Positions 25,164 through 62,200 of a DNA stretch of 64,000 nucleotides are shown here, piece by piece. How positions within the stretch are numbered: the stretch's first letter is position 1; every line of letters starts with the position of its first letter. The notes under the pieces were generated by a model, which saw only the letters and a program-made list of their open reading frames with translations, searched no databases and was not told the origin of the DNA. This DNA is from Malus domestica (Eukaryota; Streptophyta; Magnoliopsida; Rosales; Rosaceae). Position numbers and translations under genes: made by a program. The stretch spans positions 33,348,001-33,412,000 of the forward strand of contig NC_091667.1 of the NCBI RefSeq assembly GCF_042453785.1, given 5' to 3'.

Positions 25164-25576
25164 ATAAATAAAGCATTTCGGGGGGTCCCCCTCAGTGGTA
25201 GGGCTCGCAAGGAGAAAAAAGAGGAAAAGTGGGGGCTCTTCTGATTCTCTCTCTCTAGGGTTCGTTTCCTCTCTCTCAACCTTTCATTTTACTGTTCCTT
25301 TTCAGTTTCATAATTGTTCAAGTATTTGATTTTTCTTTCCGTAATTAGTTCATTAATCCAATCTAATCCTAAAGTACGAAGAGAGATTTAAAATCCCAGT
25401 AAAAAAATCGTACTCTGTTCTTGCACTGTTTCTGCAGCTAACCCAGATTTTTCCTGCTCTTAAATTCTTTTGAGTTCCTCGTTTTTTCAGCTTGATTTTG
25501 TGTTTTTCCATCTGGGTTTTTTCTGGGTTGTTCAATTTTTCTGAGATTCTTGAAGTCCGGCAGATTTTTGGAGAAG

Positions 25577-31848: not shown

Positions 31849-31853
<5 letters not shown>
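29931..31853 (-). CDS. PLP-dependent transferase, molybdenum-cofactor-sulfurase-like family
   Basis: Intact single-exon reading frame of 640 residues on the minus strand. NHTCLDYIGIGLFSSS (about 105-120), FTANRTSAFKLVAESYPF (about 183-200), LVDACALGPKDMDS (about 294-307) and SFYKICGENPSGFACLFVKK (about 321-340) are landmarks of the plant aminotransferase class V proteins related to the N-terminal domain of molybdenum cofactor sulfurase. Lys324 in SFYK is at the position expected to bind pyridoxal phosphate. The MOSC domain of true cofactor sulfurases is absent. A Lys-rich insert (KRKKKKKR, 255-262) and a Glu/Arg-rich stretch around 410-430 are low-complexity. The biochemical role of this plant subfamily is not established. 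A GA microsatellite lies immediately before the start codon. Confidence 0.93.

Positions 31854-31880
<27 letters not shown>
31854..31880. repeat. (TC)n microsatellite abutting the PLP gene start codon
   Basis: About 13 TC units, read as GA on the gene strand, within the 5' leader directly next to ATG 31853. Confidence 0.92.
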
Positions 31881-31883
<3 letters not shown>

Positions 31884-33369
31884 AATTATGATGAAGCGCG
31901 TTTTGTTCTGTGGTTTTTGTTTGTTGTTTTGATTAAATCATCTGCCAATGGTTTGTATTTGTAAGAAGTGTTTTTTGGTTAAGAAAAAGTGCAGGAGTCT
32001 ACTTTGTCTTACATGTAGTTTTAGTTTGAACAGGTCATTACACTTGAAAAAATCTGCTTAACCAGGTGACTTAGTTGACATTTTCTATAGTTAATTTCAT
32101 GATTAACCAATTAAACCTTCCTATTAGTTTCACCACTCTCTCTCGTCACAAAGGTCAATTGATTTAGACAATTCATTTTCTTTGTTACATTGGAGGGATC
32201 GGACTCTAGACATATGTTAATTCTAACCCGGTACTAACTTTTGACACCACTTAAACTAACACTCAAGGATTGGATCTCAACCAATCATTTTCTTTGTTTC
32301 ATTGAACTCAATCGAACCCTGAACCTATCTTAATTCTAATATGTTACCCAACTTTCACTCACCACTTAGACTAACCCTAACGACTATATCCGAACTCGTC
32401 ATTTAGTCAACGAGGCGTGCGTCGGTAAGACCATGATGAACAGTGGTAATCATGTATTAGTGCATTACAAGGAGCTCTCTAAACGCGCTAAACTTTAATC
32501 TCATAATTGCCAAGCACCGGCAGAGTGATGTATGTCTTTTTGTGGAAGGCAGACGCGGCAAGAGAAAGCAAGAGGCAAAAGGGGCCTTTTTTTTCTTTGT
32601 GGCCCGCATCATCGGTGCTGGCCAACATTGCTTCTGTAATCTCTATGAATGCTTCCAACTTACTTAAAGCTGAGGGTTGAATAGTTCTTTTAATTTCCAT
32701 AGATTGTGCCGATGTACAAATTTTGCATGCCAATTGTACTAAAAACCAATTTATTTATTATTTATTAAAGGTTCCAACCGTCTTAATTTGCTTTGTTTCT
32801 GTAATTGTGGCCAGAAATGCATTCGTTGTGTTAATTTTTGGAATAATTAGGTTAAATTTTACATAGAAAAACTCTTTCTCTTCTTATCAATTATGTGTGT
32901 CAAACGGGGGATTGGAATTCAGATGTAACTAAGTGAGCACATTATTCATGCCAACTTACATGAAATATGTGTGAAACTAATAAATAATTTGATATATGTG
33001 ACCAACATGATGTGGAATGGATGTGGATGGAAGTGAGGAAGAAAAATTTGTTTTTATAGGGAGTGGTATAATATTGATGTCAGCAATCAGCATCATTGTT
33101 TCATCTTTCAAGCAAATAATGGTTTACAAAAGTTGCCCACTCTATCTCTATCTAATATCAGTGGTCCAAAATTGAATGGGTACAATATTAATAATTTTAA
33201 AAACATCATTTTCGAGCCAAAAATGATTAGAAAAAAAAAAAAAAAACTGGCATATATTTTTGCCTCTTTAGCCTAAATACTCACTAAAATTGATACAACT
33301 TATCTATTGGATCACTAACATTGAAAATCAATAGAAGTTATTACTGCGTTTGTCTACCATAAATGATTT
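31881..33369. other. Gene-poor upstream region of the PLP gene
   Basis: No exon recognised. An 81-codon minus-strand frame at 32488-32733 has no recognisable motif. Confidence 0.4.
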
Positions 33370-37778: not shown

Positions 37779-38599
37779 CATATCCTCAGGTTATCCCTCT
37801 ACTCTCTTTTTCCTATCAAATGTTCGTGGTTTTATGTTTTTTTTTTTTTTTTGTGTAATTATATTAGAAGGTTTCGAGCTTTGGACCTAACCAACATTTT
37901 TCATGTGTATATTATTAGCATTTTGTGTCTTGGGTACAAAATTTCCTCACTTTTATAATGAAATTAGCCATCATTATTGAATCTCCAAATTTATTTAACT
38001 TTAGTAGTTTGCTAGTTAGACATGTGTTCATTTCAGTCTTACCTAGTGTGTCTGTATATTTCTCTTTCCAACCAAACCATGATTAAGAGCAATGCATTTC
38101 TTTATTTGATACAAATTTTCAATCTTCCTTTTACAAGTCAGTTCTCAAAATGATCACAACTAGAACAAGCCTAGCTAGCACTCGAAAAAACAACTTTCTT
38201 GCAATGGGGTCTATATTTATGGTCATGTACTACTCATATGAATTATGATGTCACAAATGTGAGACACTAGTTTCATGCAATGGATAAATGGTGATCTCGA
38301 GTCAACAAAGCTCTTTGTTTTGTGAGGATTGGGAGAGGGGAAACGTTTGTTGTATTTGTGCATTTGTATGCAGCCTTACTCTTGCATTGCAAAGAGACTG
38401 TTTCCATAACTCGAGCCCGTGACCTATTGGTCACAAAGGAACAACAGACGAAGTGCAAATTTTCTCGTAGATGACACACAACATGAAGCATGAGCAGCCT
38501 TTAGATCATCAAATTCTATCTACAATTTCTAGCATCCGCACCTAATTGTTTCCTTCCTATCTATTCTCTTAAAACAGAAGCGGAAATGCTTACCTTTTG
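37779..38599. other. Intergenic, nothing identified
   Basis: Only a T run near 37838-37853 stands out. Confidence 0.4.
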
Positions 38600-38604
38600 G
38601 TCTT

Positions 38605-38973
38605 TGTTTATATCATACTTAGGGTCTCCGTATTTAGATCTCGTATAAATACTTGGGGGACTCAAATGTAATTATGTAATAAATGAAGGGGCAAATATGT
38701 AATAAGTGAGGAGCCCTTATTTTATAAAAGGACTCCTCACTCTCTTCATTGGGAAAGGCCAATCCTTAGGCCTGACTCCCACCCTCAAAAGCCTCACTCT
38801 CTATTAAGAGGCTCTCTCTTTCCCTCTTCAACATCTCGGATAAATACAATATCAGTGTGGACGTAACCCAAACATTGGGGTGAACCACGATACATCTTGT
38901 ATTATTTACTTTCTTGCAGATTCACGGTCGGATTTACGTTGTTCCAAGACCCCTCCGGTTTTGTGCATCAACA
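38605..38973 (+). mobile_element. 369-bp solo LTR
   Basis: Starts TGTTTATATCATACTTAGG and ends TTGTGCATCAACA. GTCTT flanks both sides (38600-38604, 38974-38978), an exact 5-bp target duplication. Internal TTATTTTATAAAAGG resembles a TATA box. The partner LTR and internal region are missing. The sequence style (TGGACGTAACCCAAACATTG) is like gypsy LTRs I associate with Rosaceae, but the family is not proven. Confidence 0.85.
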
Positions 38974-39325
38974 GTCTTAGTGAACTGAATAATCACAAGG
39001 GGGCTAGCTAATTGGAAATTATATATTTTGATAGGAAAATAAAATATGAGAACAACAATATAGATTATTAACTCCTAAGGTTCCAATCTATATTCTATAC
39101 AATGTTTTAATCAAATATCTGAGTGACATGTATTCCAACAATCATTAATCTACTCTCTTTGGGAAACAAGGGTGATCAGATCAGTTTTTCTTCTTCGATC
39201 CACGGAGTAATCCATCATGCAGAATCCTTTGTCCCATGTGCCTGCACCACATACAAAAAAAAAAAAAAAAACAAAACAAAAATGCCAGTTTTATTATTTT
39301 TCTTAACATGACTATTCCACATGTG

Positions 39326-39332
<7 letters not shown>

Positions 39333-39368
<36 letters not shown>
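39333..39368. repeat. (AC)n microsatellite in HOTHEAD-like intron 4
   Basis: About 17 AC units. On the gene strand it reads GT and runs straight out of the exon 4 splice donor GTAAGTG. Confidence 0.93.
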
Positions 39369-39370
<2 letters not shown>

Positions 39371-40904
39371 ACCTTCCGAGCATCATAACAGTAGCTTGAG
39401 GGTTAGTACCCGGGGTGCGATAAAACGTCGATCCATCAACCACCCTAAGAGAATCAATGCCAGGAACCCTATATCCTTTATCAACAACCCTCCCAACTCG
39501 ACAACCTCCATGATAGTGACATATGGTCAATACAGTGTCTATGCAGAATTGTTCCAAACAGAATGTAACGTTGGCATGTTTTCGCCTTCTGTTCAACGGT
39601 AAAGCCAACATCAGGTCAATGAGAGCTTCGACCGGCATGTATTTGTAACGGAACTTTGAGTAGGCATCGGAGTTCACAACATCGATAATGGTCTTCATTC
39701 CCTCAATGCACTTCCTTAAGTCCTCTGGTTCTTTGAAGTAGTTAAAGGTGACAAATGAATTGTCATTAAGGTTTGTGTTCCTCAGCGCTAGATGGCCTCT
39801 GGAGAGTGGACCCATGATTTTTTCAAGTATGACTCCGGCTCTGAGAGTTTTATTGACAATTTCGTTTACAGTATCAACTGCCCAAGCCATGATTTTTGGT
39901 GAAGCTCTAAAAGGATGGTGCTCAGGCTGCAAAAGCGAAAACAAATTGAGATGGCGAATTGTTTCATTTTGTTATATCTAAAACTATATAGAATCATTTG
40001 AAAATATTTCATAGAAAATATAGCTTGAGAATAATAATACATATCAAGTTGTATAAACTATGGCTTGAAGCCTATTGATCATTTGTTTGTAACCCTACCT
40101 ATGGTAATTGGGCCCGATGAAACTTACCCAAAAATTTAATATCTTAGCCCAAAATGCAAAGGCTGGCAAGACGAGAATAGAAGTAAAGAAATGGAAACCT
40201 GACTCAAAAAGTGCTTAAAGTGGCCTATGAGCCGAAGGAATGGAAAGGGTCAATCCGCTAGCTCCTTCAATGTAGCTTCCAAACTGTTTGATGCCCACAA
40301 CTTGAACGAGGGAGACCTCAACTGGTTGAGGTGAAGGAATGAGCAGAATATTCATTGGATTATCCGCCATCCCCTGGCCGACCATGGGGCAGTCCGCTAT
40401 CACCTAGATGCCGTGGGCTCGGAAATGGAAGGCAGGCCCCACACCGCTCAGCATCAACAACTAAGTGCTTCCAATCACACGGACTGATAAGACGATTCCA
40501 TTCTTCTTTGAGTTCCTCTTTAGGTATGCACGGTGCCTAATACCATATGCATCTTTATAAATCACACCAGAAGCTTGTGGTCTTAGTCATCCTGCACAAA
40601 AAGTAGCACCATAAGCTAACTGCTAAACAATAAAACTATATTCTACAATTTTTATATAAAAATATGATTTTTCCAACTGGTTAGTAAACGCTTACCGGGA
40701 ATGTTTCTAAACAACATTTTTTGCACAGTTGCATGCAAATAAACAGTGATCTTTCTAGGTCTGCATACTGAAGCAAATCTGGAGCTGTGTGTCTATGTCC
40801 ATCTGCATAAAAAATAGTCCCACCAACTTTAGTCCCATACAAATGCTCTTAGGTAAACCCATTGTGAGGTCCATTGTGAGGCAAGACTCCCACTTCAAGC
40901 AAAC

Positions 40905-41176
40905 TATTGGAAGTCGGTTTCTGAATATTAAGGGAAGCTTACGGTCCTTAATTCAAGGGGCTGTTATTTATTTTCCCTAAGCCAGACAACTTCCTTAATT
41001 CAAGGGTGTCAACTTCTTAATCTAAGTTGTCAACTCCCTTAATTTAAGGGGCTGTTATTTATTTTTCCTAAGCCACCTGTTGTGGCGTAAAGCAAGAGGT
41101 TAATCCTCTTATATATTGTTGTACAATTGTAAAAGAACTTATGAGTGAAATACAATTCAATCCTTGAAAATCAATA
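40905..41176 (+). repeat. Copia-A 5' LTR
   Basis: Starts TATTGGAAGTCGG, ends CTTGAAAATCAATA. About 98% alike to the shared part of the 3' LTR by eye. Confidence 0.92.
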
Positions 41177-41455
41177 TGGTATCAGAGCAGGAAAATTAAC
41201 CTGCGTCTGCTATACTGCTATTCGAGCGTGTTCAACCCTCAAAATGTCTGAAGATAATCTGCTGATATCCGAAGCTGAAAGCTCACAGGTGCCTTCCTCC
41301 ATGAACGTGCATGAGGTGGACGTCAACCCAAATCAAAGATTAAGCTCAGTCGTGTTGAATGAGTTTAATTACTTGCCTTGGTCGAGAGCTGTGTCTTTGG
41401 TGCTAGGTGGAAGGTCCAAGTTGGGGTTCATAAATGGAAGCATCAAAGTACCTGA

Positions 41456-42214
41456 TGTTGGAAGTTTTGAGACTCTTGTCCCACATTGGTGAAAACAAGA
41501 TTCCAAAGTACCTTTATATACTTTTTGTCTTCTACAATATTGGTTATGTGTTGGACTACTTGGAATGGGAATTGAGGCTTGGGCCACCATTTCTGTGGAT
41601 TGGGCTTGATGATTATACCATAATATTAATATTAATTAATCAAGACAAGGGCCTTGGGGCACTTGGGGCCTAAGAATTAAAATTAATCTGATCAATTAGT
41701 TTTAATTTCGAATTAAGTTTTTAATTAAATTAATTAAAAACGTTTTGATTAAAGATACAACCTTTTGTAAAGAGTTGTAAAGTTTCAGATACATCCAAAA
41801 GGTATTTGAAGAGGTATGAAAGAGCCTATATAACTGGAGTCCTCAGTTCATCATCGATCATCCTTTCTTCTTCCTTTTCTTCCGTACAAACTTTCCAGAG
41901 AGAGTAAACACACAAAGCAATTCGCTAGAATTCTATAATCCAGTGCGGGTTGTAGGATTAGGTAGTTGTATCCTGGTCGAGCAGACGTTGTAGAACCACA
42001 AGCACAAGAGTGGGACGAAATTACTGTTCGAAGGACATAGCTTTTACGCTAGCCTCTACCTTCTGTAATCAAGTTAGTACTTTTGATATTCTCATATTTA
42101 ATTTTCTGTAGTCGTTGTGTATCATTCTGTATTGCAAGTATTTTTGAGTAATAAAGTATAAATATTTCAAGTTCTGTATTTCTGTTATTTCTGTTTCTAA
42201 ATTGTTCTCCAACA
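41456..42214 (+). repeat. Copia-B 5' LTR
   Basis: 759 bp with canonical TG...CA ends. Contains GCCTATATAACTGG near 41826, a probable TATA box. Confidence 0.94.
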
Positions 42215-42227
42215 ATCTTCGAACAGT

Positions 42228-45200
42228 ATGGAACAATCTGGAACTAAACCTCTTTCTGAGAAGCCTGAGAAATTTAAGGGCGGAGACTTCAAACGATGGC
42301 AGCAGAAAATGCTGTTTTATCTGACAACCTTGAATTTGGCTAATGTTGTGCACCAGACTGAACCTACTGCAGATGGAGAAAATATTTTTTCTGCAGAAAC
42401 TTTGACGACTATAGATGCCTGGAAACATAATGATTTCCTCTGCAGAAACTATATTCTTAATGCATTAGATGATTCATTGTATGATGTCTACGTGGTGTGC
42501 AAAACAGCCAAGGAACTGTGGGAATCATTTGAGAAAAAATATAAAACCGAGGATGCTGGTTCAAAGAAATTTGTCGTGGGCAAATTTTTGGACTACAAAA
42601 TGGTGGATTCCAAGTCTGTTGTCTCTCAAACTGAAGATCTCCAGAAAATCATCCATGACATTCATGTTGAAGGGATGGTAATCAATGAGTCTTTCCAAGT
42701 GGCGTCCATTATCGAAAAACTGCCACCTTCTTGGAAAGAGTTCAAGAGTTATCTCAAGCACAAACGAAAGGAGATGACCCTTGAGGATCTCATTGTAAGG
42801 CTGGGAATTGAGGAAGATAACAGAAAGAATGAGAAGGGCCTGGTTTCGAGTATGGAAGCCAAGGCGAATGTTGTTGAAGGAAGTTCATCAAAGCAAAGGC
42901 CAAAATTCCAGAAAACTAAGAAGAAGGAAAACCACTTTATCCCTGGTGCGAAAGGCAAAGACTTCAAGAAAATCAAGGGAAGTTGCTGGGTTTGTGGAAA
43001 GCAAGGCCATAGGGCTCAAGAATGTCGCCATCGAAGGGATCAAGGTCCTGGAAATCAAGGCAACAACAACCGCGCAAACCTGATTCAAAACAATGTGGAT
43101 GCCCTGGCTGCAATGATTTCTGAAATCAACCTTGTATCTGACCATGCTGATTGGTGGATAGATACCGGTGCAACTCGCCATGTTTGTGGTGACAGAAATA
43201 TGTTCTCTTCGTACCAGAAAATAGAGGGAAACGAGCAGCTGTTTATGGGAAATGCATCCTCATCTGTTGTGGCTGGAATAGGGAAGTGTGTTCTGAAATT
43301 CACTTCTGGAAAGGAATTGACCCTTCTTGACGTACTGCATGTCCCCGATATAAGGAAGAATCTTGTTTCTGGTCCTATCCTTAGTAATAAAGGATTCAAA
43401 CTAGTTTTTGAGTCCAATAAGTTTGTATTAACGAAAGGGGGAATGTTTGTGGGAAAATGGTTACCTTGCTGATGGATTATTCAAACTCAATGTACTTGCT
43501 AATGCTATGAATGAAATAAATAATGCTTCTGCTTATATTGTTGATTCGTCTAATTTATGGCACTCTAGGTTAGGACATGTAAATTTTCGTTCTCTTTTTA
43601 GAATGCATAATTTAGGTTTGCTGCCCAAAATTGATTATCTAGATAATGTTAAATGTGAAACTTGTACAGAATCGAAATTTGCAAGTCAAAGCTTTAAATC
43701 AGTGCATGAAAAATCCAATGATTTGTTAGATTTAATTCATAGTGACTTGTGTGATTTTAGATCATATCCAACTTGTGGTGGAAAGAATTATTATGTAACA
43801 TTTATAGATGATTTCAGTAAGTATTGTTATGTTTATTTACTTCATAGCAAAGACGAGACCTTGGATATGTTTAAGACATATAAGGCAGAAGTTGAAAATC
43901 AACTTAACAAGAAGATTAAAGTCTTAAGGTCCGATAGGGGAGGAGAATATGAGTCTCATGCTTTTGCTGAATTTTGTGCCACACATGGCATAATTCATCA
44001 AACAACAGCCCCCTATACACCACAACAAAACGGTGTTGCCGAAAGGAAAAATAGGACTTTTAAAGACATGATCAATTTTATGTTGAATAGTTCTGGACTT
44101 CCACACAATTTGTGTGGTGAAGCTTTACTTACTGCAAATAAAATTTTGAATCGAATTCCACCTAAAACGAGAAAGGAGTCACCATATGAATTATGGAAAG
44201 GAAGAACCCCTACGTTTAAATTGCTTAAAGTGTGGGGTTGTCTGGCAAAAGTACAAGTTCCATTGCCAAAAAGAACAAAATTAGGACCTAAAACTATTGA
44301 TTGTGTTTTTATTGGTTTTGCATCTAATAGTTCGGCTTATAGATTCTTAATTTTTCATTCCGAAATAAGTGATATACATGTCAATACTATTATAGAATCT
44401 ATAAATGCAATATTTTTTGAGGATATTTTTCCATACAAAATAGGCAAGTCTAATTTATTGAAAAAGAGAATACATGATGATGTATCTGAGGTTACTGATG
44501 AACCTAGAGAACATGATGATGGTTCAACCTCGTCTAGAGTTCAAGAAGAAGAACTTGAACCTAGAAGAAGTAAAAGGACAAAAATCCGAAAGGACTTTGG
44601 GCCTGATTTTGTTACTTTATTAACCGAGACAGAACCTCAATCATTCAAGGAGGCCATGTCCACTCCTGAAGCTCCATTTTGGAAGGATGCAGTTAACAGT
44701 GAGATAGATTCCATTATGCAAAATCATACATGGGAATTAGTCGATTTGCCCCCTGGCAATAAGCCAATTGGGTACAAATGGATCTTTAAGAAAAAATTAA
44801 AACCAGATGGTACAATTGACAAATATAAGGCTCGTTTGGTAGCTAAAGGATACCGTCAAAAACATGGTTTGGATTTCTTTGATACATAGTCACCTGTAAC
44901 GAGAATTACTTCAATAAGATTATTGATTGCTATAGCTGCACTCCATAACATGGAAATACATCAAATGGATGTAAAAACTGCATTCTTAAATGGAAACTTA
45001 GATGAGGAAATATATATGGAACAACCCGAGGGGTTTGTAGTTAAAGGTAAAGAACACAAAGTGTGTAAACTTGTGAAATCGCTATATGGGCTTAAACAAG
45101 CTCCAAAGCAATGGCATGAAAAATTTGACCATGTTCTGATCACACACGGTTTTAAGATAAATGAGTGTGATAAGTGTGTCTACACAAAAACTCAAAATAA

Positions 45201-46173
45201 TGCTTGCGTTATGTTGTGTTTATATGTAGATGATATGCTTATAATGGGAACTAACAAAGAGATAATACATTGGACCAAGAAGATATTGAAATCAAGTTTC
45301 GATATGAAAGATCTTGGTCTAGCTGATGTGATTCTTGGTATAAAAATCAAAAGAAACCAAGAAGGTTATATTCTTACGCAATCCCATTATATAGAAGCAA
45401 CACTTAGAAAGTATGGTCATTTGGAAAGTAAAGATGCAATTACTCCTTATGATGCCGATAGCAAACTAAAGAAAAATAGTGGTGATGCTATATCTCAACG
45501 TGAATATTCACAAGTCATTGGAAGCCTTATGTACATTATGAATTGTACAAGGCCTGATATAGCTTACTCAGTAAGTAGACTGAGTAGATATACATGCAAT
45601 CCTGGGCATGATCATTGGGAAGCTTTAATTCGAGTATTGAGATACTTAAAGCATACAATAAATTATGGATTGCATTATACAAGGTATCCTCCTGTGCTTG
45701 AAGGATTTACTGATGCGAATTGGATATCGGATAGCAGTGATACGAAATCCACAAGTGGATATGTATTTACTTTAGGAGGAGCAGCAATATCTTGGAAATC
45801 CTCCAAACAAACGTGCATAGCCTGATCAACAATGGAATCGGAATTTATAGCCCTCGATATGGCTGGAGGAGAAGCTGAGTGGCTAAGAGATTTTTTGGAA
45901 GATGTTCCCATATGGCCTAAACCTGTAACGGCAATATGTATACACTGTGATAGTTTAGCTGCACAATATCGAGCTAAAAATAGTGTATACAATGGGAAGT
46001 CTAGACAAATTAGACGAAGACATAATACAATAAAGCAATGGCTCTCTAGTGGTGTAATTTTTATTGACTATGTCAAGTCAAAAGATAATATTGCGGATCC
46101 GCTTACTAAAGGCTTATCTAGAGAGCAAGTTAAGCATACATTGAGGGGAATGGGTTTAAAGCCAATAGAGTAA
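42228..46173 (+). pseudogene. Copia-B gag-pol, nearly intact
   Basis: Gag from ATG 42228 ([19 protein letters not shown]) with the knuckle [14 protein letters not shown] near 42984 and protease [12 protein letters not shown] near 43154. One frameshift around 43455-43465 moves to the frame of [11 protein letters not shown]. Integrase ([28 protein letters not shown]) follows, then an in-frame TAG at 44887-44889. RT has YVDDMLIMG near 45223. A TGA lies at 45823-45825, then RNase H runs to 46173 with ADPLTKGLSREQ. Three lesions in about 1,310 codons fit a recent, now inactive copy. Confidence 0.94.
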
Positions 46174-46739
46174 AATGAAACTGCTAAATGGAAACCTAAC
46201 CTAGTTGATTGGAGATCCCATGGTCTAGGTTCAATAGGCCAACTGGTTTGGCTAGATTCAAGAAGAAACACACTTACATACCCATTCCTATGATGGAAGA
46301 AGTGTGGTGACTGCTGATGAGTATAGGATACATTAGTTTAATGATATTGATACTTGTAAGTCAAGTGGAATAGTAGCAGCTTATTCTTAATCAATATCAC
46401 CTATATGAGAAAAAATGTGGGGTCGCATTTATGAGATTTATATGGCTACATTCTCTAAAGCTCTCATGAATCCAGGATTTGTTCAGGACCAAAATGAACA
46501 CAAACGTATGAATTTGCGATGTGTTGGTGTGGCATATGTTTTGCTTATTGTCTAGGTTTACTGCGGAGATGAACAATTCAAGATTTTATATTCACTGCGT
46601 CATCTAGTAAATCCGATAAGTATATACTAAGGTAGGTTCAAGTCCAAAAGACACCTTTCCTGATGTATGTCACATCTATTGTTTACTCTCGTATCTTAGT
46701 TTCTCTAAGACTAAATAGTCGTCTCAAAATGTGGGGTAT

Positions 46740-47498
46740 TGTTGGAAGTTTTGAGACTCTTGTCCCACATTGGTGAAAACAAGATTCCAAAGTACCTTTA
46801 TATACTTTTTGTCTTCTACAATATTAGTTATGTGTTGGACCACTTGGAATGGGAATTGAGGCTTGGGCCACCATTTCTGTGGATTGGGCTTGATGATTAT
46901 ACCATAATATTAATATTAATTAATCAAGACAAGGGCCTTGGGGCACTTGGGGCCTAAGAATTAAAATTAATCTGATCAATTAGTTTTAATTTCGAATTAA
47001 GTTTTTAATTAAATTAATTAAAAACGTTTTGATTAAAGATACAACCTTTTGTAAAGAGTTGTAAAGCTTCAGATACATCCAAAAGGTATTTGAAGAGGTA
47101 TGAAAGAGCCTATATAACTGGAGTCTTCAGTTCATCATCGATCATCCTTTCTTCTTCCTTTTCTTCCGTACAAACTTTCCAGAGAGAGTAAACACACAAA
47201 GCAATTCGCTAGAATTCTATAATCCAGTGCGGGTTGTAGGATTAGGTAGTTGTATCCTGGTCGAGCAGACGTTGTAGAACCACAAGCACAAGAGTGGGAC
47301 GGAATTACTGTTCGAAGGACATAGCTTTTATGCTAGCCTCTACCTTCTGTAATCAAGTTAGTACTTTTGATATTCTCATATTTAATTTTCTATAGTCGTT
47401 GTGTATCATTCTGTATTGCAAGTATTTTTGAGTAATAAAGTATAAATATTTCAAGTTCTGTATTTCTGTTATTTCTGTTTCTAAATTGTTCTCCAACA
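46740..47498 (+). repeat. Copia-B 3' LTR
   Basis: Same length as the 5' LTR. Preceded by the GTGGGGTAT purine-rich tract. Confidence 0.94.
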
Positions 47499-50400
47499 CC
47501 TGATGCTTCGTCACCAAACTATGAATCCTGGCTTAGCAAGGATCAGCTGGTTATGTCATGGCTCTTGAATTCCATGGAACGTAAATTAGCTGAAATATTC
47601 AGCTACTCAGAATCCTCGTACCAGCTATGGGAAGCGGTCAAGGAAATATATGGCAGCCAAAACAATGTTGCACGGGTTTTCCAATTAAAGAAGGACATCT
47701 CTGATCTGCAGCAAGATGGCAAATCGTTTGTGCAACTCCTAGGAAGCATGAAAAGCATGTGGAATGAGTTGGAAATCTATCGCCCTCATACAACCGACGC
47801 AGCACTGCTACGAAAGAGAGCAGAAGAAGACAAGATATTTCAACTCTTGTCTAGTCTTGATTCAACGTATGAAGACCCTCGATGTCACATACTTATGAAC
47901 ACTGAGCTTCCTTCCTTCACCAGTGTGTGTGCGACGATTCAACGGGAAGAAGTAAGGAGGAAACTCATGAACATGGGTACAACGACTAGTGTACCTGAGG
48001 CTAGGGCATATATAACCAACGAAAAGAGGTACAAAGGAAAGCATCCGAACTTGAAGTGTCAACACTGCAATAATACGGTTCACGTCAAAGACACATGCTG
48101 GATTTTACACACAAAGTTAAAGCTTGAGTTCATGAAGGACAGCAAGGGTGTGCAAAGGATGAACCGTACTTCACATCGAGCGAATCATGCGTCTAACTCC
48201 ACCTCCAATGGGCCAGATCCACTCAAGAACTTCACAGCGAATCCAGCTGAACTCATGAACGAGTTTATGTCATATCTTCAAAGCAAGAAAGTAGGTGCTG
48301 GAAGTGATCATGCTGGTAGCATAGAAGAAGGGAACTCGACGGCATTGCTCGGCAAGTTTGCAGGGTTCTTGGCAGACACGAAACTCGTACCCCAAGAGGA
48401 CATGCAAGGTATCATGAAAGCCTTTAAAACTGCTCTTAAAATAAATATGTTGCATGATTTTTGGGTTGTAGATTCGGGTGCCACAGATCATATGACCAAC
48501 CATGTGTCTAAGTCTCAAAAATTTGAAAAATTTGAAAACCCTTCTCAAGTTTCAATTGCAAATGGTGAGAATGTAAAGGTCTTAGGAAAGGAAAAAATAA
48601 AATTAATGTCAGACGAAATTGAATCAATGGCTTTATATGTTCATTCTTTCCCATTTTAACTTCTATCTGTGGGAAAGATCACAAATACCTTGAATTGCTT
48701 AGCCATTTTTTTCTCCTCACAATGTTATCTTTCAGGATTGTGCCACCAAGAAGACGATTGGTGAAGGGTTTTATTTAGATGGTCTCTATTACATATCAAA
48801 TAGCAATCCGAGAAGGTTTCAAGCCAAGCTCAACCCCATTCAAGATAATCAATTGTGGCATCAACGTTTAGCTCATCATTCTTCACCCATTTTGTCAACT
48901 CTATTTCCAAACTTGGGAAAGGATGCTATTTCATGTGAAACATGCCACTTGTCTAAATCCACTCGACTACCTTTTAAGTCTTCCTTGTCTAGAACTAGTA
49001 AGTGTTTTGAACTAGTTCATTCAGATGTATGGGGACCAACTAGTGAATCATTTGATGGCTATAAGTATTTTGTGATTTTTGTGGATGACTTCTCTCGAGT
49101 CACATGGTTATATCTCTTAAAGTCTAAGAATGAAGTTATGAAAGTTTTTAAGGACTTTCATAACCTTGTTAAAAACCATTTCTCCTCTCAAATTCAAACC
49201 TTAAAGTCTGACAATGGCACCGAATATATGTCCCATATCATGCAACAATATTTGAGCACTAATGGCATCATGCATCAAACAAGTTGTGTTGGAACACCTC
49301 AACAAAATGGTGTATCCGAACACAAAAACCGTGACCTACTTGAAAAAACAAGAGCACTAATGCTACAAATGAATGTACCAAAGAGATTTTGGTCTCAAGG
49401 CGTTATGGCAGCTGCATATATCATCAATAGATTACCCAGCCGAGTCTTGGAATTCAAGTCTCCACTCGAGGTCATGAAAGGAAGGAAAATTGACCTCTCA
49501 CATCTTAGAGTGTTTAGCTGCATCCGTTTTGTGCATGTTCAATCTCTTCACCGAGATAAATTAGATCCTAGAGCTGCCAAATGTATTTTTCTTGGTTATT
49601 CCTCTACACAAAAGGGATATAAGTGTTATAATCCCCAACTAAGGAGGTTGATTGTGTCCAAAGATGTGCGATTTCATGAAACTAACCCTTTTTCAGCAAG
49701 TCAAGTGAAATCATAGCCCAAAGGGATGGCATCTTGGATGTGTTCCCACTACCAAGAATTGAACTGGAAGGACCACAACAATGCGAGCTTAGTTATGTCA
49801 ACGTTGATGCTTCTCCTAATGAAGATAGCAATGAAGGGTCTCACTCTGAGGATACACTGCATGACAATTGTGACAATTAAGATGATGCGAACGAGTGTGA
49901 AACAACTTTTCCAGCTCCTCGACGCAATCCAATGCGTGTTAGAAAAACTCCCACAAGACTTCAGGATTTTGTCATGTACAAACCCACACATCCTATCTCC
50001 AATTGTGTGTCATACAAGAGAGTGACATCGGATCATGCTGCATTCCTAAGTACTATATCCAGTTACCATAAGCCTTAGAATTTCCACGAGGCCAACAACC
50101 AAGAGGTGTGGAAAGAGGCAATGCAAGAAGAACTTAAAGCTCTAAATCAACACAATACCTGGAGCATCACAAAACTTCCAACAGGCAAGAAATCAGTGGG
50201 TTGTAAATGGATTTATAAACTCAAATTCAAGTCAGATGTTTCAATTAAGAGACATAAAGCAAGACTGGTGGCTCGGGGATTCACTCAAACATTCGAGGTG
50301 GATTACAAAGAAACGTTTGCACCTGTGGCCAAAATGAACACAGTAAGAGTGTTATTGTCTGTAGCTGTAAACAAATGATGGTCCATGTACCAAATGGACG

Positions 50401-51612
50401 TGAAGAACGCATTCTTGCATGGTGATCTCAAAGAAGAAGTCTATATGAAATTGCCACCAGGGCATCCACAAAGCAATGAACCGAATGTGGTGTGCAGATT
50501 GCACAAAGCCATTTATGGCCTAAAGCAATCCCCACAAGCTTGGTATGCCAAACTAAGCTTAGTTCTCACTAGTGTTGGTTTCAAAAGCAGCAACACTGAT
50601 TCCTTATTATTTATTCGCACAGGAGCTGTGGGCACATTAGTTGTGCTGATTTATGTTGATGATTTGATAATTACTGGTGATAATACTGACGAGATCTCCA
50701 CTCTTAAACAGTCTCTCAGACAAAGATTTGCAATTAAAGACCTTGGGATATTGAAGTACCTTCTTGGTATAGAAGTGGCAACCTCACACATAGGACTGTT
50801 TCTTAACCAAAGAAAGTATATCTTGGATCTGCTCAAGGACACTAACATGAGCGATGCTAAACCAGCCACCACTCCACTTGACAGTAAGCAAAAACCTAGC
50901 TTGAAGGGCACGCCACTCACTGATATCACCCATTATCAGCTATTGGTTGGAAAATTGATCTACCTCACAATCACTAGACCCGACATCACCTATTCTGTAA
51001 GTCTTGTGAGCCAATTCATGCACTCCCCAACTCTTGAACATTTGACTCTGGTTAAACGGATCTTACGCTACTTAAAAGGTTCAGTGGGTCGTGGTATCAT
51101 CATGCGGAAGAATGACAACACTCAAGTCGTAGGGTATTGTGATGCTGATTGGGCAGGCAATGCAATCGATCGTAAGTCCACCTCCGGCCACTGTACATTT
51201 GTCGGTGGAAACTTGGTCACCTGGAAAAGTAAAAAGCAAATTGTTATCGCCAGATCCAGTGCTGAAGCTGAGTACCGTGCAATGGCTTCCACTGCGTGTG
51301 AGTTGATCTGGCTCAAGGGTCTTCTGTGTGATTTAGGGTTTTCTGCAACTCTTCCTATGTCCTTATTCTGTGACAATCAAGCAGCCATGCATATAGCATC
51401 TAATCCTGTGTTTCACGAGAGAACGAAACACATTGAGGTTGACTGTCATTTCGTTCGGGCACATGTGCAGTCGCAGGTAATTCAGACACGGTATACACGA
51501 AGCTTCGACCAATTGGCCGACATTTTCACCAAGCCCTTGGCTTCTCATCAGTTTCAATGGCTTCTGTCCAAGCTTGGATCCATAAACCTTCTGGATCCAG
51601 CTTGATGGGGAG

Positions 51613-51954
51613 TATTGGAAGTCGGTTTCTGAATATTAAGGGAAGCTTATGGTCCTTAATTCAAGGGGCTGTTATTTATTTTCCCTAAGCCAGACAACTT
51701 CCTTACTTCAAGGGTGTCAACTTCTTAATCTAAGTTGTCAACTCCCTTAATTTAAGGGGCTGTTATTTATTTTTCCTAAGCCACTTGTTGTGGTGTAAAG
51801 CAAGTTGTCAACTCCCTTAATTTAAGGGGCTGTTATTTATTTTTCCTAAGCAACCTGTTGTGGCGTAAAGCAAGAGGTTAATCCTCTTATATATTGCTGT
51901 ACAATTGTAAAAGAACTTATGAGTGAAATACAATTCAATCCTTGAAACTCAATA
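51613..51954 (+). repeat. Copia-A 3' LTR with internal 70-bp tandem duplication
   Basis: It is 70 bases longer than the 5' LTR because GTTGTCAACTCCCTTAATTT through GTGTAAAGCAA is present twice (about 51734-51874). Ends CTTGAAACTCAATA. Confidence 0.92.
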
Positions 51955-52558
51955 CAAACCATCTCTGAAAGCACTCTCCCACTGCAAAATCTCCGGTTCA
52001 AAAGCCACCACTTTCTCAACCCATTCATACGACTGATCGACCATTCCCTGGTTCCAACCTACTTCCCTGATGTAATGTGTGCTGGCGCGCTTGTAGAACC
52101 TGGCGTTCAATACTGAGCCGCCACCCAGCACGCGTGTGCAGATGTTAAAGACGCGATCCTCGGAGGTGAAGTGCTGGCCTGGGGATGTGGGAGAGGTGTC
52201 CAAAAGAGTGGGGGCAAAATTTTCAATGTTGATTATGTTCGGATTGCCGTAAGGCGAGCCGCCTCTTTCCAGGACTAAAAAACTGGCACCGTGAGAGAGA
52301 GTGGCGGCTAATGGACATCCCGACTATGTAGTCAAAGTGAACCACTGCTGGGGCTGATTTTGCTTCTCTAACAAATGTATAGTCCGGAGCTGTACACAGA
52401 CTTATAGTAAAAAATAACGATTAATCGTATTGGTGATGCATTTATTTAATTTTGTAACAATTAATGTGTACAATATTCATACCTTTATCAGAATAACAAA
52501 TGGGAAGCAACAAGAGAATTCCAGCAAGAAGATAAGCTCCAAAGAATCTAATACACAT

Positions 52559-53370
52559 TGTGATCTCTAATATACCCAGAGATTATACTATTAATTTTGA
52601 AATATATCTATGACGATCTGGGGGTGTTCTTCAAACTAATTACCAAAACCACACTAGCTAATCACCTTTAAATAAGCCTAAACACTAAGGCCTAGTGGCC
52701 TAGCTAACGTTCTTTGTGCACAAAAACAGACCTATACATACATTTTTAATTGAACAACATAAATTTTCACCTACTCATCATGTAAAGATTCAAAGCTCTT
52801 CATACACACAATTTCCCTTTTTTGATCAGTAGTTAAAACCCTAATTAGTCGCTTCCTTGTTGCACAGTCGAAGTTACAAATCTCAAAGTCATGGACCCAT
52901 GCATGAGAACAATAACTATTATTGAAATTTGAGGAATATATAAAGACATCACGTAAAGTTGAAATGTTTATTAATGGTATGAATTTTGGATCTTACATAT
53001 ATTGTCCTATTTATTCAACTGCGTACACCCACCCAGTATTTGTTTTTGCATGCCTTGATCGAAAGTTTATGGTAGCTAGGTCTAATTAAGTGGAATTAAC
53101 TTTTGTGAAGTAGCTCAACTGCCCGGAGAGGTATTGGTTGAATCCAATTAATTCAAAGATATCAATGGTGGTCTTTTAACGTAGTCAGTTACCTGCGAAC
53201 CTGACTCGGTTTGCTTCCAGATGTGAGTTCTTCTTTCTGGGGAAAAAGTGAACAAAGAACTGAAGAAGCCATTCTTTTTCCTTTCTCTGGGTGGAAATTT
53301 TATTGGATAGTTCCTTGAATTATAAATCTGACTAATTGTAATGTGGGAGAATTAATCAATATTATCCCAC
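52559..53370. other. Upstream region of the HOTHEAD-like gene
   Basis: A/T-rich, no coding sequence. It lies between the pseudogene start and Copia-C and presumably held its promoter. Confidence 0.5.
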
Positions 53371-53375
53371 TCAAT

Positions 53376-53747
53376 TGTTGGTGTATAATCCTTTAGCTGA
53401 CACTTGGTAGCAAGAACTATGTTTCTCTGTTTTGTTTCAGTTTGAATGTGAGCCTTTGGATCATAGTCCACATGGCTTTTTAATCTTGTGTCTAGCCTAA
53501 GTAGTAGAATAAGCCAAGTGGCATCATCTCATAGGATGATAGCAATGAATGGCTAAGATTGTGTTGTATGTTGAAGAGTGAAGGATCCCCCTTCCTTTCT
53601 TCAACATAACGGTTAGCTTGTATTTTGCAGAATTATGAATGAAATTTGAAGAGTCATTTTTTGCAGCTTCTTCTCTCTGTAACTCTCTCCATCTTTGAAG
53701 ACCACCTCCATTGAAATACATACTGAAAACACACACAAACACTAACA
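53376..53747 (+). repeat. Copia-C 5' LTR
   Basis: 372 bp with TG...CA ends. Partner at 58014-58385. Confidence 0.95.
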
Positions 53748-53862
53748 TGGCCTCAGAGCCTGGTTTCATCGTCTAATCTGGGCGTGAAATCTGTGCGATT
53801 GAGCTACATCTTTGAGCTTCAATCGAACCTGAAAACTGTGATTTCGTGTATCCAAGTCTCAT

Positions 53863-56800
53863 ATGGCTGGGTCCGGAAATGTCGAGCTTAGAGCTCCGGT
53901 CTTCAATGGAGAGAACTATGAATTTTGGAGGATTCGTATGATAACTATACTGAAATCGTATGGTTTGTGGGAGCTGGTAGAAAATGGGTTTGTACCACCA
54001 GATCCGAAGTCTGAGAAAGCTGTGGTCGATGAGACGAAGAAGGAGATGCCGGATGGAGTGTCGTTCAGTGAGATCTTGATGAAGGATGCTCGTGCGCTTG
54101 GAATGATACAAGGTGCAGTATCGGATCAGATTTTTCCCAGAATCGTGAATGAAGAAACATCCAAAGGAGCTTGGGATGCTCTAAAGGGCGAATTCCGAGG
54201 AGATAAACAAGTAAGAAATGTAAAATTGCAAGGTTTACGTAGAGATTTTGAATATACTCGTATGAAGGACAGTGAATCATTATCTGTGTATCTCTCTAGA
54301 TTGTTTGATATTATTAATCAGATGAAAAGTTATGGAGAAGAACTATCTAGGGAGAGAATTGTGCAGAAATTACTTATTAGTCTTCCGAAAACATATGATG
54401 CAATTTGTTCTGTAATTGAGCACTCTAGAGATCTTGAAACTATTGAGGTCCAAGAGGTTGTAGCTTCTCTAAAAGGATTTGAACAGAGGCTTGATCTACA
54501 TACTGAGTCTTCGACTGAGAGGGCATTTACAAGTCTAAATGTAGCATCTAAGGGTGTCAAAAGTGGTGGATTTTCTGGGAATCAAAGGTCTCAAGAGAGT
54601 TGGAAATCAAGGGGAAAGAATTGGGATCATAAATCAAACCTTCCTCAGAGACAGAACAATACTCAAAGGAATTGGGATCACAAACCAAATTATCCTCAGA
54701 GACAGAACATTATTCAAAGGAATTGGGATCATAGGCCTAATTATGTTCAGAAGCAAAACAATGCTCAGGGTGATTGTAAGTGGTGTGACAGGTTGCACTA
54801 TGGGAAGTGTTGGTATGAAGGTAAACCAAAGTGCACAGGCTGTGGTAAGCCAGGTCATTCCATGAGAGATTGTCATGAGAATAGGGGCGTGCAGAAAGTT
54901 AATTATGTGAAGCAAATGGGAGAAACAGGATCACTGTTTTATGCCTGCAATGCAGTGACTGATGTGAAAGTCAATAACTCATAGTACATTGATAGTGGTT
55001 GTAGTAACCACATGACAGGAGATGATAGATTATTGGTCAATATTCAGAGAGGTTTGACATCCAAAGTGAAGATGGGAACTGGAGAAATCTGTGAAGTGGC
55101 AGGAAAGGGAACTTTGGTGATTGAAACTAAATTGGGAAGAAAACATATACAAGAAGTAATGCTTGTTCCCGGACTTGAGGAGAATCTTCTAAGTGTAGGG
55201 CAAATGATGGAAAATGGTTATTATTTGCTGTTTGGAGGTAATGTAGTGAATATTTTTTATGGATGGTCACTGGATAATTTAGTAGTGAGGGTACATATGA
55301 CCAACAATCGATGTTTTCCTTTGACAATGTTGCCTGCAACACAGTATGCACTAAGGGCAGGTATCACTCATTGTGCTCGGATATGGCATAAGAGATTGGG
55401 TCATTTGAATGAGAGAAGTCTCAAGGTACTTGAAGAACAGGAGTTGGTGCATGGATTACCTAAACTAGAAATGTCCCAAAGTGTATGTGAAGGCTGCATG
55501 TTGGGTAAACAACACAGAGACTCATTCCCTTCTCATTCAACTTGGAGAGCTAAAGATCCACTGGAGTTGATTCATACAGATCTCTGTGGTCCAATGCAAG
55601 TAGAGTCTCATTCTGGAAACAAATATTTTTTGCTGTTTACTGATGACTGCACAAGGATGTCATGGGTGTATTTTCTGAGAAACAAGTCTGATGCATTTGA
55701 ATGTTTCAAAAGGTTCAAGGCAATGACTGAGTTACAATGTGGATATAGGGTTAAATGTCTTAGGAGTGATCGAGGGGGAGAATTCCTTTCTGCAGAGTTT
55801 GACAAATACTGCAATGATCAAGGAATTCAGAGACAGTTGACTATGGCCTACACTCCTCAACAGAATGGAGTGTCCGAAAGAAAGAATAGGACTGTGGTGG
55901 AGATGGCAAAGTCAATGCTACATGAGAAAAACCTTCCATATGCATTTTGGGCAGAGGCAGTGAACACTGCAGTCTATTTGATCAATCGGTGTCCTACCAA
56001 AACTTTGAAGAAGTCAACCCCATTTGAAGCTTACAGTGGTAGAAAACCTAGAATAGCTCATTTGAAGATATTTGGCTCACTGTGCTATGTGCATATCCCT
56101 TCCAATCTCCGACATAAGTTGGAAGAAAACAGTCACAAGTGTATCTTTGTAGGATATGGTTCAAGTGAGAAGGGCTACAGATTGTTTGATCCCATTTCAA
56201 GGAAGATTGTTCTCTCAAGGGATGTCACATTTGATGAGAGTAAATCTTGGGATTGGAACTGCAATATAGATACTGGAGTGACATTTCCAGTAGTCACTGA
56301 ACATAAGAATGCTAATGAAATCTGTGAGATTGATGAAGATCCTCAGTTTGAAGAATACAATGTTTCTCAAAGTGAGAATATGCTTGAGAGATCTCCAACT
56401 TATGATGATACACCGAAGAAATGGAGAAGTATCAATGAAATCATGCCTCAATGCAACATGTGTGTTATTGAACCAGAAAGTTATGAGGATGCAGTCAAAG
56501 ATGATTCATGGAGGAGTGCAATGAAAACTGAATTGGACATGATTGAGAAGAACAACACATGGCAGCTTGTTGAGAGACCATATGACAAGCCTGTTATTGG
56601 TGTTAGATGGGTCTATAAGACCAAACTTAATTTGGATGGCACGGTGCAGAAGAATAAAGCTCGGTTGGTGGCTAAAGGCTACTCACAAAAGCCCGGAATC
56701 GACTATAATGAAACCTTTGCCCCTGTGGCAAGGTTGGATACAATTAGGACCTTAATTGCCCTTGCTGCACAGAAGAAATGGAACTTGTATCAATTAGATG

Positions 56801-58026
56801 TAAAGTCTGCATTTCTCAATGGGGTACTGAAAGAAGAAGTGTATGTTGAGCAACCTCAAGGTTTTGTGAAGGAAAGTGAAGAAACAAAGGTGTACAAGTT
56901 GAACAAGGCTCTATATGGCTTGAAACAAGCACCAAGAGCCTGGTATGATGAGATTAATGCATACTTCAATAATGCAGGGTTTGAAAAGAGTTCAAGTGAA
57001 GCAACTTTGTATGTTAAGACAAGTAAGGACTCAGGTATCATTATTGTCTCTCTATATGTAGATGACATTGTATATACTGGTAGCAGTCCACAAATGCTTG
57101 AAGAATTCAGGAATGACATGATGAAACACTATGAGATGACTGACTTGGGCTTATTACATCATTTTCTTGGAATGGGTGTGCTGCAAACTGAGAACAGCAT
57201 TTTTATACACCAAAAGAAATATGCACAGAAACTAATTGAGAAGTTTGGTCTGAAAGAATGCAAGTCAGTTGCTACTCCACTTGCAATGAATGAGAGGTTG
57301 AGTAAAGTTGATGGAAGTGAACCTGCGGATGAAGGAGAATATAGGCAGCTTGTTGGAAGTCTGCTCTATTTAACTGCAACTAGGCCTGATGTGATGTTTG
57401 CAGCAAGTATGTTGGCAAGGTTCATGCATAATCCCACTAAGAAACATATGGGAACAGCTAAGAGGGTACTAAGATACATCCAGGGAACAATCGATTTTGG
57501 TATTGTCTTTGAAAGGGGAAAAGCTACTACTCTAATCGGCTACTGTGATAGTGATTGGGCTGGAAGTGAGGATGATATGAGAAGTACTTCAGGGTATGCA
57601 TTCACACTAGGATCGGGTATGTTCTCATGGGCTTCAATCAAACAAAACACTGTGGCACTGTCTACTGCAGAAGCAGAATATGTTAGTGCAGCAGAGGCTA
57701 CATCACAAGCAAAGTGGCTGAGATTTGTTCTAGAAGACTTTGGAGAAGAACAAGTGGAAGGAACTCAGATCTTGTGTGATAATACATCAGCTATTGCTAT
57801 GGCAAAGAATCCAGTCTTTCATCAAAAGACAAGACACATCAACAGGAAGTTCCACTTCATCCAAGAAGCAATTCAAGCCAAAGAGATTGAGTTAGTGTAC
57901 TGCAGGACAGAGGAGCAGATTGCAGATATACTGACTAAGGCTTTACCTAAAGATCGATTTGTGTATCTAAGGGAGCTACTTGGAGTTAAATCAGCCAAAG
58001 GATTAGAAGGGAGTGTTGGTGTATAA
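53863..58026 (+). pseudogene. Copia-C gag-pol, open except for one TAG
   Basis: Gag 53863-54984 (MAGSGNVELRAPVFNGENYE), then pol in the same frame to 58026, about 1,387 codons in all. Knuckle CTGCGKPGHSMRDC near 54832. Protease [12 protein letters not shown] directly after the stop. Pre-integrase [10 protein letters not shown] near 55384. Integrase has [17 protein letters not shown] and [12 protein letters not shown] has YVDDIVYTG near 57055. RNase H has [22 protein letters not shown] and [11 protein letters not shown]. The sole lesion I see is TAG at 54982-54984, where the family normally has Trp before YIDSG. It may be a simple nonsense mutation (TGG to TAG). Confidence 0.95.
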
Positions 58027-58385
58027 TCCTTTAGCTGACACTTGGTAACAAGAACTATGTTTCTCTGTTTTGTTTCAGTTTGAATGTGAGCCTTTGGATC
58101 ATAGTCCACATGGCTTTTTAATCTTGTGTCTAGCCTAAGTAGTAGAATAAGCCAAGTGGCATCATCTCTTAGGATGATAGCAATGAATGGCTAAGATTGT
58201 GTTGTATGTTGAAGAGTGAAGGATCTCCCTTCCTTTCTTCAACATAACGGTTAGCTTGTATTTTGCAGAATTATGAATGAAATTTGAAGAGTCATTTTTT
58301 GCAGCTTCTTCTCTCTGTAACTCTCTCCATCTTTGAAGACCACCTCCATTGAAATACATACTGAAAACACACACAAACACTAACA
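58014..58385 (+). repeat. Copia-C 3' LTR
   Basis: 372 bp, three differences from the 5' LTR by eye. Followed by TCAAT. Confidence 0.95.
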
Positions 58386-58390
58386 TCAAT

Positions 58391-59219: not shown

Positions 59220-62200
59220 TCTATATGATAGATATTATATGTGTGAGGTGGTTAAGTTTGTTTAGATTATGTGAAGTAAAGATTATGACAAGTGTCAAGA
59301 TCTTGTGAGTCTTATAATAGCTTAGGAACTAAGCAATGTAATCAGATATATACAACATATAACTGTAAAGGAATTATCTCTAGTAATTCATTCAATTCAA
59401 AAGAAATACTTTCTCTCTCTACAACTGTTCTTTCTTTCTATGCAAGAATATTGTGCTTCTTTCTGTTTACATGGTATCTTTCGCCTGAAAAGCTTCGTGC
59501 TTGACGGTTTTTTGATCTTGTTTCTTCTGTTTCCTCTCAACTGCTTCCATTGACGGTCGTTCCTCTTCTTCTTGGGATCTTGATCGTTCTCTGCTTCCTC
59601 GACTAGGTGCCTTCTCTTCTCTGCACACCAAGTGTTTGTTCTAAGTTCTCAGAGAAATTTTCATTTGGGGTTTTCTCCTGATTTGCTACAATGGTGACTT
59701 CTGCACAGTTGCAAATTCTTCAATCTCCTATAACGTCTCTTATATCAACAGTTTTATCTTCTATGACTGTTAAGCTTGACGATTCCAATTATCTCACTTG
59801 GAATTTTCAAATCGAGTTGCTTCTTGAAGGCTATGGTCTCATGGTTTTTGTGGATGGGTCGCATTCGTGTCCAACTCGCTTTGTGGTATCCAACTCTGCA
59901 GATTCCTTTATTTCTTCAAGCGATGTGCCTTCGACAATTGAAAATGATGAATTCAAGATTTGGAAAATGCATGATCGGGCATTGATGCAATTGATTACCA
60001 CTACCCTCTCTCCTTCTGCTGTTTCATGTGCAATTGGTAGTACTAGTGCTCGTGATTTATGGGTTCGACTCAAGGAACAATTTTCGATTGTTACTCGAGC
60101 CACAATTTTTCAAATGAAGTCGGAATTGCAAAACATTAAGAAAGGTACCGATTCGATCTCTATGTATTTGTAAAGGATTAAAGAAGCTCGTGATCATCTT
60201 GCTGTTGCTGGGGTTCAATTTGATGATGATGATATTGTTATTTTAACTTTGAATGGTCTATCCTCTGAGTATAATACCATACAATCAATCATTAAGGGTC
60301 GAGAGAATGTTATTTCTATGAAATGGTCGCCAAAAATAATAACATTGACTCGAGGTCTTATGGTGAATCTTCCAAGATTGACACTTCTCTAAATGGTACT
60401 TCATATGGAGGTTCTTCTGGTTTCAAGCCAACCTACAACAAGAACAAAAACAATGGCAAATTTCAGTATAATTCTTAGAATCGATTTGGGAACTTTAAGC
60501 TTAACGATGGGAATTATACTGTGAATCAAGCACCTGGAATTCTTGGTACATCTCCACTAAGGCAACAGAGTTTTTCTGGTACATCTTGTCAGATATGTGG
60601 GAAATTTGGACACTTGGCTCCTACCTGCAGGTTTCGAAATTATGATAGTGCAGTTTCTGAGGGGTGTCAAATTTGTGGGAAAGAGAATCATAGTGCTAAA
60701 TATTGTCATTTTAGGAACTCAAATATGTCATCTTCATCTCCTACAGCCATGCATGTCACAAATACTCAGTCCAGTGAACCAAGTGCTCCTCATCAACAGT
60801 TTTGGCTCACTGATTCAGGAACTTCTTCACACATGACTACTGATATGAGTAATATGTCCCTTGCTTCCCCATATCCCACTAATGAAATGATTCAGTCTGC
60901 GAGTGGTGCAGGTTTATCAATATCTCATATTGGTTCATTTACACTACATACTCCATTAAAATTCTTGTAGCTTAATTCTGTTTTATATGTTCATAGATTG
61001 TCTTAGAACCTATTATATGTGCATCGACTGTGTCTCGATAATAATTGCTGGCTGATCTATGATGCTTTTTGCTTTTGGATCTAGGACAAGGCCACATGGA
61101 GGATCCTCTTTCAAGAACGTTGCAGTAATGGATTGTACCTTATTCCACTTTCGGCTAGGCATAAAGCTATCCCTGCAAAGTATCAGGCTGCATATCTTGG
61201 ACACCAAGTCTCTTCTAGCCTTTAGCATCATCGATTAGATCATCCTTCCAATTCAGTAGTTTCTGTCATGTTAAAGAAATGTCATCTATCTGTATTACCT
61301 AACTCAGTGTATGTGACGTGTCATACATGTTTGGAAGGCAAGTTTTGTAAATTGTCCTTTGTTTCTTCTGTGTCTAAGTCAATTCATCCTTTTCAAGTAG
61401 TTCATAGTGATGTATGGGGTCCATCTTCTTGTACTTCTATAGATGGTTTTAGGTATTATGTGACATTCATTGATGAATGCACAAGACATTATTGGTTGTT
61501 TCCTGTTATTAATAAAAATGATGTCTTTTCCACGTTTGTTGGCTTTTATAACTCTATTTCAAATCATTTTGCCATTTCGATTAAAACCTTACAGAGTGAT
61601 GGTGGGGGTGAGTATCTCAGTAAACCTTTTTAGAAATTTTTGTTGGATAAAGGAGTAAAACATCAATTGTCATGCCCCTATACCCTTAAGCAAAATGGTT
61701 TAGCAGAGAGAAAGCATATGCATATTATTGAAACAGCTATCACCTTGTTACAAACAGCTGCCTTACCTCCAATTTTTTTGGTCATTTGCATGCCAAACTG
61801 TTGTGTACCTTATTAATAGAATGCCATCACCTACCCTTCAACAAAAATCTCCATTTGAACTATTGTTTAATGCTGTTCTAGATATTAATCATCTCAAGAT
61901 TTTTGGGTGTTCAATTTTTCCATTGTTAAAACCCTACAACAGCACCAAGTTACAACCCAAAACTGCAAAATGTCTTTTCTTAGGCTATGCTTCAAAATAC
62001 AAGGGGTTCATTTGTTATGACATTATTCATGAAAAATATTACATTTCCAGACGTGTAGTGTTTGATGAGTCTGAGTTTCCGTATTCCACTTTATCTTTAA
62101 AACATCATGTCTCCCCCAATCCTACTTCTACACATGTCTTCATCTCCTTATCTCCTTCTATATGCATTAATAGGGAGAATCGTTTGGTTACAATCCCATT

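Follow-up and report, generated by a model that had tools for sequence, protein, structure and literature searches.

Nested insertion of LTR retrotransposons is common in plants, and excerpts from two surveys report 1491 nested LTR pairs in 12 plant genomes (PMC6911290) and a nested position for 36 of 132 LTR elements (PMC1560396). In such systems one element lies within another, each is flanked by its own target duplication, and the order of insertion can be read from the arrangement. Non-canonical ends have also been described: as far as the excerpted text goes, TATA is included in the motif library of LTR_retriever (PMC8220671), and Copia families with TG..TT and AA..CA ends occur in Rosaceae (PMC5659011), the latter source also citing the tomato element TARE1 with TA-CA ends.

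In the window, i.e. the whole stretch of 64,000 nucleotides of Malus domestica DNA analysed here, we find such a nested arrangement within a gene copy related to the plant GMC oxidoreductases, which include HOTHEAD and the hydroxynitrile/mandelonitrile lyases. We propose that a first Ty1/copia element, Copia-A, integrated into the second exon of this copy and that a second, Copia-B, subsequently integrated into the Copia-A gag, each integration making a 5-bp target duplication, with integrase-mediated retrotransposition as the presumed source of both insertions. The host copy is a pseudogene with several lesions that are independent of either element, and both elements have since lost intact coding capacity. 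We put the probability of this scenario as a whole at roughly 0.95. The locus shares the three features named above with described nested plant LTR retrotransposons, but differs from them in that its outer element lies in a coding exon, the mechanism being no different; as Copia-A sits in a coding exon, the first layer of insertion is readable too. Nested insertion is in itself ordinary and no new mechanism is needed. Among the papers listed by a literature search, judged from titles and abstract openings, none matched the present case of a transposon-split HOTHEAD pseudogene.

The host gene copy and its lesions

The host gene lies on the minus strand; its ATG is at 52558 and its stop codon occupies 39181-39183. 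The limits of its five exons and four introns were set by eye from reading frames and GT-AG ends:

39181..52558, minus strand: GMC-oxidoreductase (HOTHEAD/mandelonitrile-lyase-like) pseudogene (three-frame translation, alignment, PF05199)
52483-52558, minus strand: exon 1 (read by eye, GT-AG)
51955-52389 and 40696-40899, minus strand: exon 2, in two pieces (read by eye, GT-AG)
40199-40591, minus strand: exon 3 (read by eye, GT-AG)
39373-39926, minus strand: exon 4 (read by eye, GT-AG)
39181-39241, minus strand: exon 5 (read by eye, GT-AG)

For comparison with PDB sequences the host protein was read through, with X placed at stops and frame changes. At a threshold of E 0.001 this query matched 55 different PDB sequences, the best being 8s2y (E 3e-113) and the second 1ju2, an almond-type hydroxynitrile lyase (E 2.9e-98). 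The last large exon contains the GMC C-terminal domain (PF05199, 81.5 bits against a cut-off of 24.6). Fragments of the GMC N-terminal domain (PF00732) score 16.3, 15.8 and 17.9 bits, below the Pfam cut-off of 23, and homology to the PDB sequences is strong over the same stretch; the upstream host ORF by itself gave no Pfam match at E 0.001. The host copy is homologous to plant GMC oxidoreductases over nearly the whole protein, and the histidine-containing HYHGGC stretch near the C terminus of these enzymes also appears in it. Judged by these similarities the host gene is a member of the plant GMC oxidoreductases; the HOTHEAD label is one that we assume, the membership tested being that of the GMC oxidoreductases only.

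Unlike other plant GMC oxidoreductases, the host copy lacks the glycine-rich FAD loop and is disrupted by two frameshifts, by three or more stops and by an insertion of 11 kb. The following lesions, identified by visual inspection of reading frames and alignments, lie outside the inserted elements:

52306..52333, minus strand: frame change, glycine-rich FAD-binding loop lost (frame switch; the aligned enzymes have the loop here)
40849..40851, minus strand: TAA, 16 codons past the restored junction (translation, join)
40736..40761, minus strand: second frame change (frame switch; homology picks up in the next frame)
40461..40463, minus strand: TAG in exon 3 (translation, alignment)
40404..40406, minus strand: TAG in exon 3 (translation, alignment)
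40587..40589, minus strand: possible lesion, TGA where exon 3 begins, hinging on the choice of splice acceptor (translation)
40215..40217, minus strand: possible lesion, TAA close to the exon 3 end, where the alignment is poor (translation, alignment)

A strict count thus gives 5 lesions, while a wide count that adds the stops at 40587-40589 and 40215-40217 gives 7. On this evidence the host locus is a pseudogene whether or not the transposons are counted. The original prediction implied that the transposons had split a gene that was sound in other respects, and this part of it fails: with at least two frameshifts and three stops outside the insertion, the transposons are not the sole cause of gene loss, and perhaps not the first. 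Separately, the host gene has an in-frame 12-bp repeat at 40859-40881.

Two Copia elements, one within the other

The window is free of any N, and self-comparison together with a repeat search recovered two nested LTR pairs in the studied region, with the following features:

40905..51954, plus strand: Copia-A, LTR retrotransposon, antisense to the host gene (LTR pair, flanks, Copia gag/integrase/RVT_2)
40905..41176, plus strand: Copia-A 5' LTR, 272 bp (LTR pair)
51613..51954, plus strand: Copia-A 3' LTR, 342 bp, holding two tandem copies of a ~70-bp unit of which the 5' LTR has one (LTR pair)
40900..40904, unstranded: target duplication CAAAC, copy 1 (flank of Copia-A)
51955..51959, unstranded: target duplication CAAAC, copy 2 (flank of Copia-A)
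41456..47498, plus strand: Copia-B, LTR retrotransposon with TG...CA ends, in the same orientation as Copia-A (LTRs, Copia domains)
41451..41455, unstranded: target duplication CCTGA, copy 1 (flank of Copia-B)
47499..47503, unstranded: target duplication CCTGA, copy 2 (flank of Copia-B)
41244..41455, plus strand: Copia-A gag, N-terminal portion, on the left side of Copia-B (PF14244 Retrotran_gag_3, E 2.7e-14, profile 8-47 of 48)
47504..48656, plus strand: remaining Copia-A gag with the beginning of the protease region, right of Copia-B, until a TAA at 48657 (PF14223, E 2.8e-13; PF22936)

Copia-A spans 11,050 bp in total; without Copia-B and a single duplication its length is 5,002 bp. It qualifies as a Ty1/copia element by its paired LTRs, its target duplication, a primer-binding site (TGGTATCAGAGC at 41177-41188, directly 3' of the 5' LTR) and an integrase (rve, in 48703-49716) placed upstream of the reverse transcriptase (RVT_2, in 50379-51605). 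Its termini are TATTG...CAATA rather than TG...CA. It thereby joins the Ty1/copia elements lacking TG..CA ends, its TA..TA ends lying within a TATTG/CAATA inverted repeat, but its ends differ from the TG..TT and AA..CA ends of the Rosaceae Copia families in the excerpt of PMC5659011. Such TA..TA termini are uncommon yet already catalogued. The two ~70-bp units in the 3' LTR (51613-51954) are slightly unlike each other; hence their duplication may predate the insertion, in which case the 5' LTR would have lost a unit.

The two halves of exon 2 end at 51955 and 40899, and the gap of 11,055 bp that separates them has the combined length of Copia-A and a single duplication, which accounts for the 11-kb separation of the exons just as had been predicted. 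When flanks of 66 and 70 nt are joined across Copia-A they form a single open frame (...AFRDGL/LEVGVLPHNG...), and the alignment of the host protein to solved GMC enzymes crosses this junction without a gap, a 4-residue insertion occurring a few residues downstream. The prediction that Copia-A splits exon 2 is borne out by this in-frame join and unbroken alignment.

Copia-B is 6,043 bp long, with LTRs of 759 bp each (41456-42214 and 46740-47498) that differ by 7 substitutions (0.92%). It qualifies as Ty1/copia by paired LTRs, TG...CA ends, a target duplication and an integrase upstream of the reverse transcriptase. No primer-binding site of the initiator-Met type, the only type checked, follows its 5' LTR, ATCTTCGAACAG standing at 42215-42230 instead; primers of other types exist. 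The gag ATG of Copia-B lies within about 16 bases of the end of the 5' LTR. On the left of Copia-B, 70 residues match the Copia gag family PF14244, and the frame to its right matches PF14223 from profile position 29, while flanks of 66 and 67 nt joined across the element again form a single open frame (...SIKVP/DASSPNYES...). The match on either side and the short in-frame join together place Copia-B inside the Copia-A gag, as the original prediction had it.

Both predicted target duplications, CAAAC and CCTGA, are exact and present in the sequence. Random pairs of 5-mers drawn from 38001-54500 match with a probability of 0.0015, and the LTR ends were defined independently, so that two exact duplications are not attributable to chance. 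The nested insertion, with its exact duplications and locally restored reading frames, is confirmed at the level of the sequence. Removal of the elements had been expected to restore the reading frame: it does so locally at both junctions, but not along the whole gene, where a TAA that the original prediction does not mention follows 16 codons on and further frameshifts and stops intervene.

Since Copia-B lies within Copia-A, it is the later arrival, and the predicted order of gene, Copia-A and Copia-B is supported by the split exon and the nesting. The Copia-A LTRs carry 4 substitutions within their shared part (1.47%); at 1.3e-8 substitutions per site per year the LTR ages are 0.57 My (95% 0.15-1.45) for Copia-A and 0.36 My (95% 0.14-0.73) for Copia-B, and both double at a rate of 6.5e-9. 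As proof that Copia-B is the younger, the LTR clock was rejected: its direction agrees, but the difference (4/272 versus 7/759, Fisher p = 0.49) is too weak.

Neither element retains an intact gag-pol. Copia-A, its interruption by Copia-B aside, has four stops (48657, 49878, 50076, 50376) and two frame changes, and in Copia-B there are stops at 44887 and 45823 as well as a single frame change near 43460; both elements are, as read from their frames, coding-dead. By eye, Copia-A (48700-48740) and Copia-B (43440-43475) each shift frame by +1 at roughly similar spots soon after Pol_BBD, and there is no frame change at the corresponding place in the three other Copia elements of the window (Copia-C, Copia-D and Copia-E); the similarity is probably a coincidence. 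A search for relatives of the Copia-A and Copia-B reverse transcriptases in a viral contig collection gave 9 and 4 peptide-pattern matches, respectively, none of them confirmed.

Timing of the host decay and other readings of the locus

The host copy has 5-7 lesions in 1731 bases (2.9-4.0 per kb), against 6 in 4314 bases for Copia-A (1.4 per kb) and 3 in 3940 bases for Copia-B (0.76 per kb). The densities fall in the order that an earlier onset of gene decay would produce, and we lean towards host decay before or around the arrival of Copia-A, although the lesion counts are not decisive: the excess of the host over Copia-A has a binomial P of 0.18 with 5 lesions and 0.049 with 7, and the difference between Copia-A and Copia-B a P of 0.30.

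The alternative that survives best is that Copia-A killed a working gene, and that all other host lesions gathered afterwards without selection. We consider this possible but rather unlikely. The splice sites of the host copy, all GT-AG, and the lesion-free exons 4 and 5 speak for it, and under the LTR clock the probability of at least 5 host lesions since Copia-A arrived is 0.078, 0.24 and 0.42 at indel/substitution ratios of 0.1, 0.2 and 0.3. For at least 7 lesions, however, the corresponding values fall to 0.016, 0.088 and 0.21; in this Poisson test the nonsense fraction per substitution was set to 0.05, which lies above the computed range of 0.027-0.043 and therefore favours the null. The two- to threefold higher density of lesions in the host than in Copia-A also counts against a gene that was intact when Copia-A inserted. 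Moreover, Copia-A may have been defective on arrival, in which case its own lesions would overestimate the decay since insertion.

Misassembly, whereby misjoined repeats would make the gene halves merely seem to flank the elements, deserves consideration, as regions with LTR retrotransposons are prone to it. Against this, the two exact duplications at the LTR ends are independent of each other, with a chance of a 5-mer match as low as that given above, the exon halves and the gag halves each join in frame with continuous homology, and the window has no N; we regard an artefact as very improbable. The gene copy might also be a piece that a mobile element had picked up and transported, instead of a resident gene, a thought encouraged by Copia-rich surroundings with three further Copia elements in the window. 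This too is highly unlikely: the copy is complete from start codon to stop codon, with four introns, and lies outside Copia-A, so that the element is within the gene and not the gene within the element.

Exons 4 and 5 (39181-39926) contain no stop or frameshift, as against 5 to 7 in the rest of the gene. Were lesions spread evenly, this would arise by chance with a probability of 0.09 (5 lesions) or 0.035 (7 lesions) using 660 of 1731 bases, figures slightly weakened by the exon ends, which give 615 bases rather than 660. It strikes us as scarcely credible that transcription of these exons persists and that they are retained for a residual function, with the upstream part of the gene decaying around the nested elements.

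Surroundings and meaning of the locus

About 0.8 kb upstream of the pseudogene start codon lies Copia-C (53371-58390), with LTRs 99.2% identical and TCAAT on each flank; its gag of 380 aa and its pol of 1013 aa share one frame, with a single in-frame TAG (54982-54984) between them. Copia-D (5393-10043) has 195-bp LTRs that are 96.9% identical and at least 8 stops in its aligned coding stretches, and Copia-E (59682-64000) is a decayed Copia coding region that extends up to the window end, with several stops and frame changes. Elsewhere in the window there are a 389-aa open frame with a TCP transcription-factor domain (25496-26665; PF03634, E 6.2e-25) and, on the minus strand, a 668-aa open frame with a weak class-V aminotransferase match (29931-31937; PF00266, E 3.6e-05).

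The locus offers a clean worked case of layered insertions, in which a single sequence reveals the order of three events. The locus further cautions that a restored junction is not a restored gene, for the frame recovered across Copia-A meets a stop 16 codons later. Finally, it contributes a Copia copy with TA..TA ends and a dated marker for comparisons among related plants.
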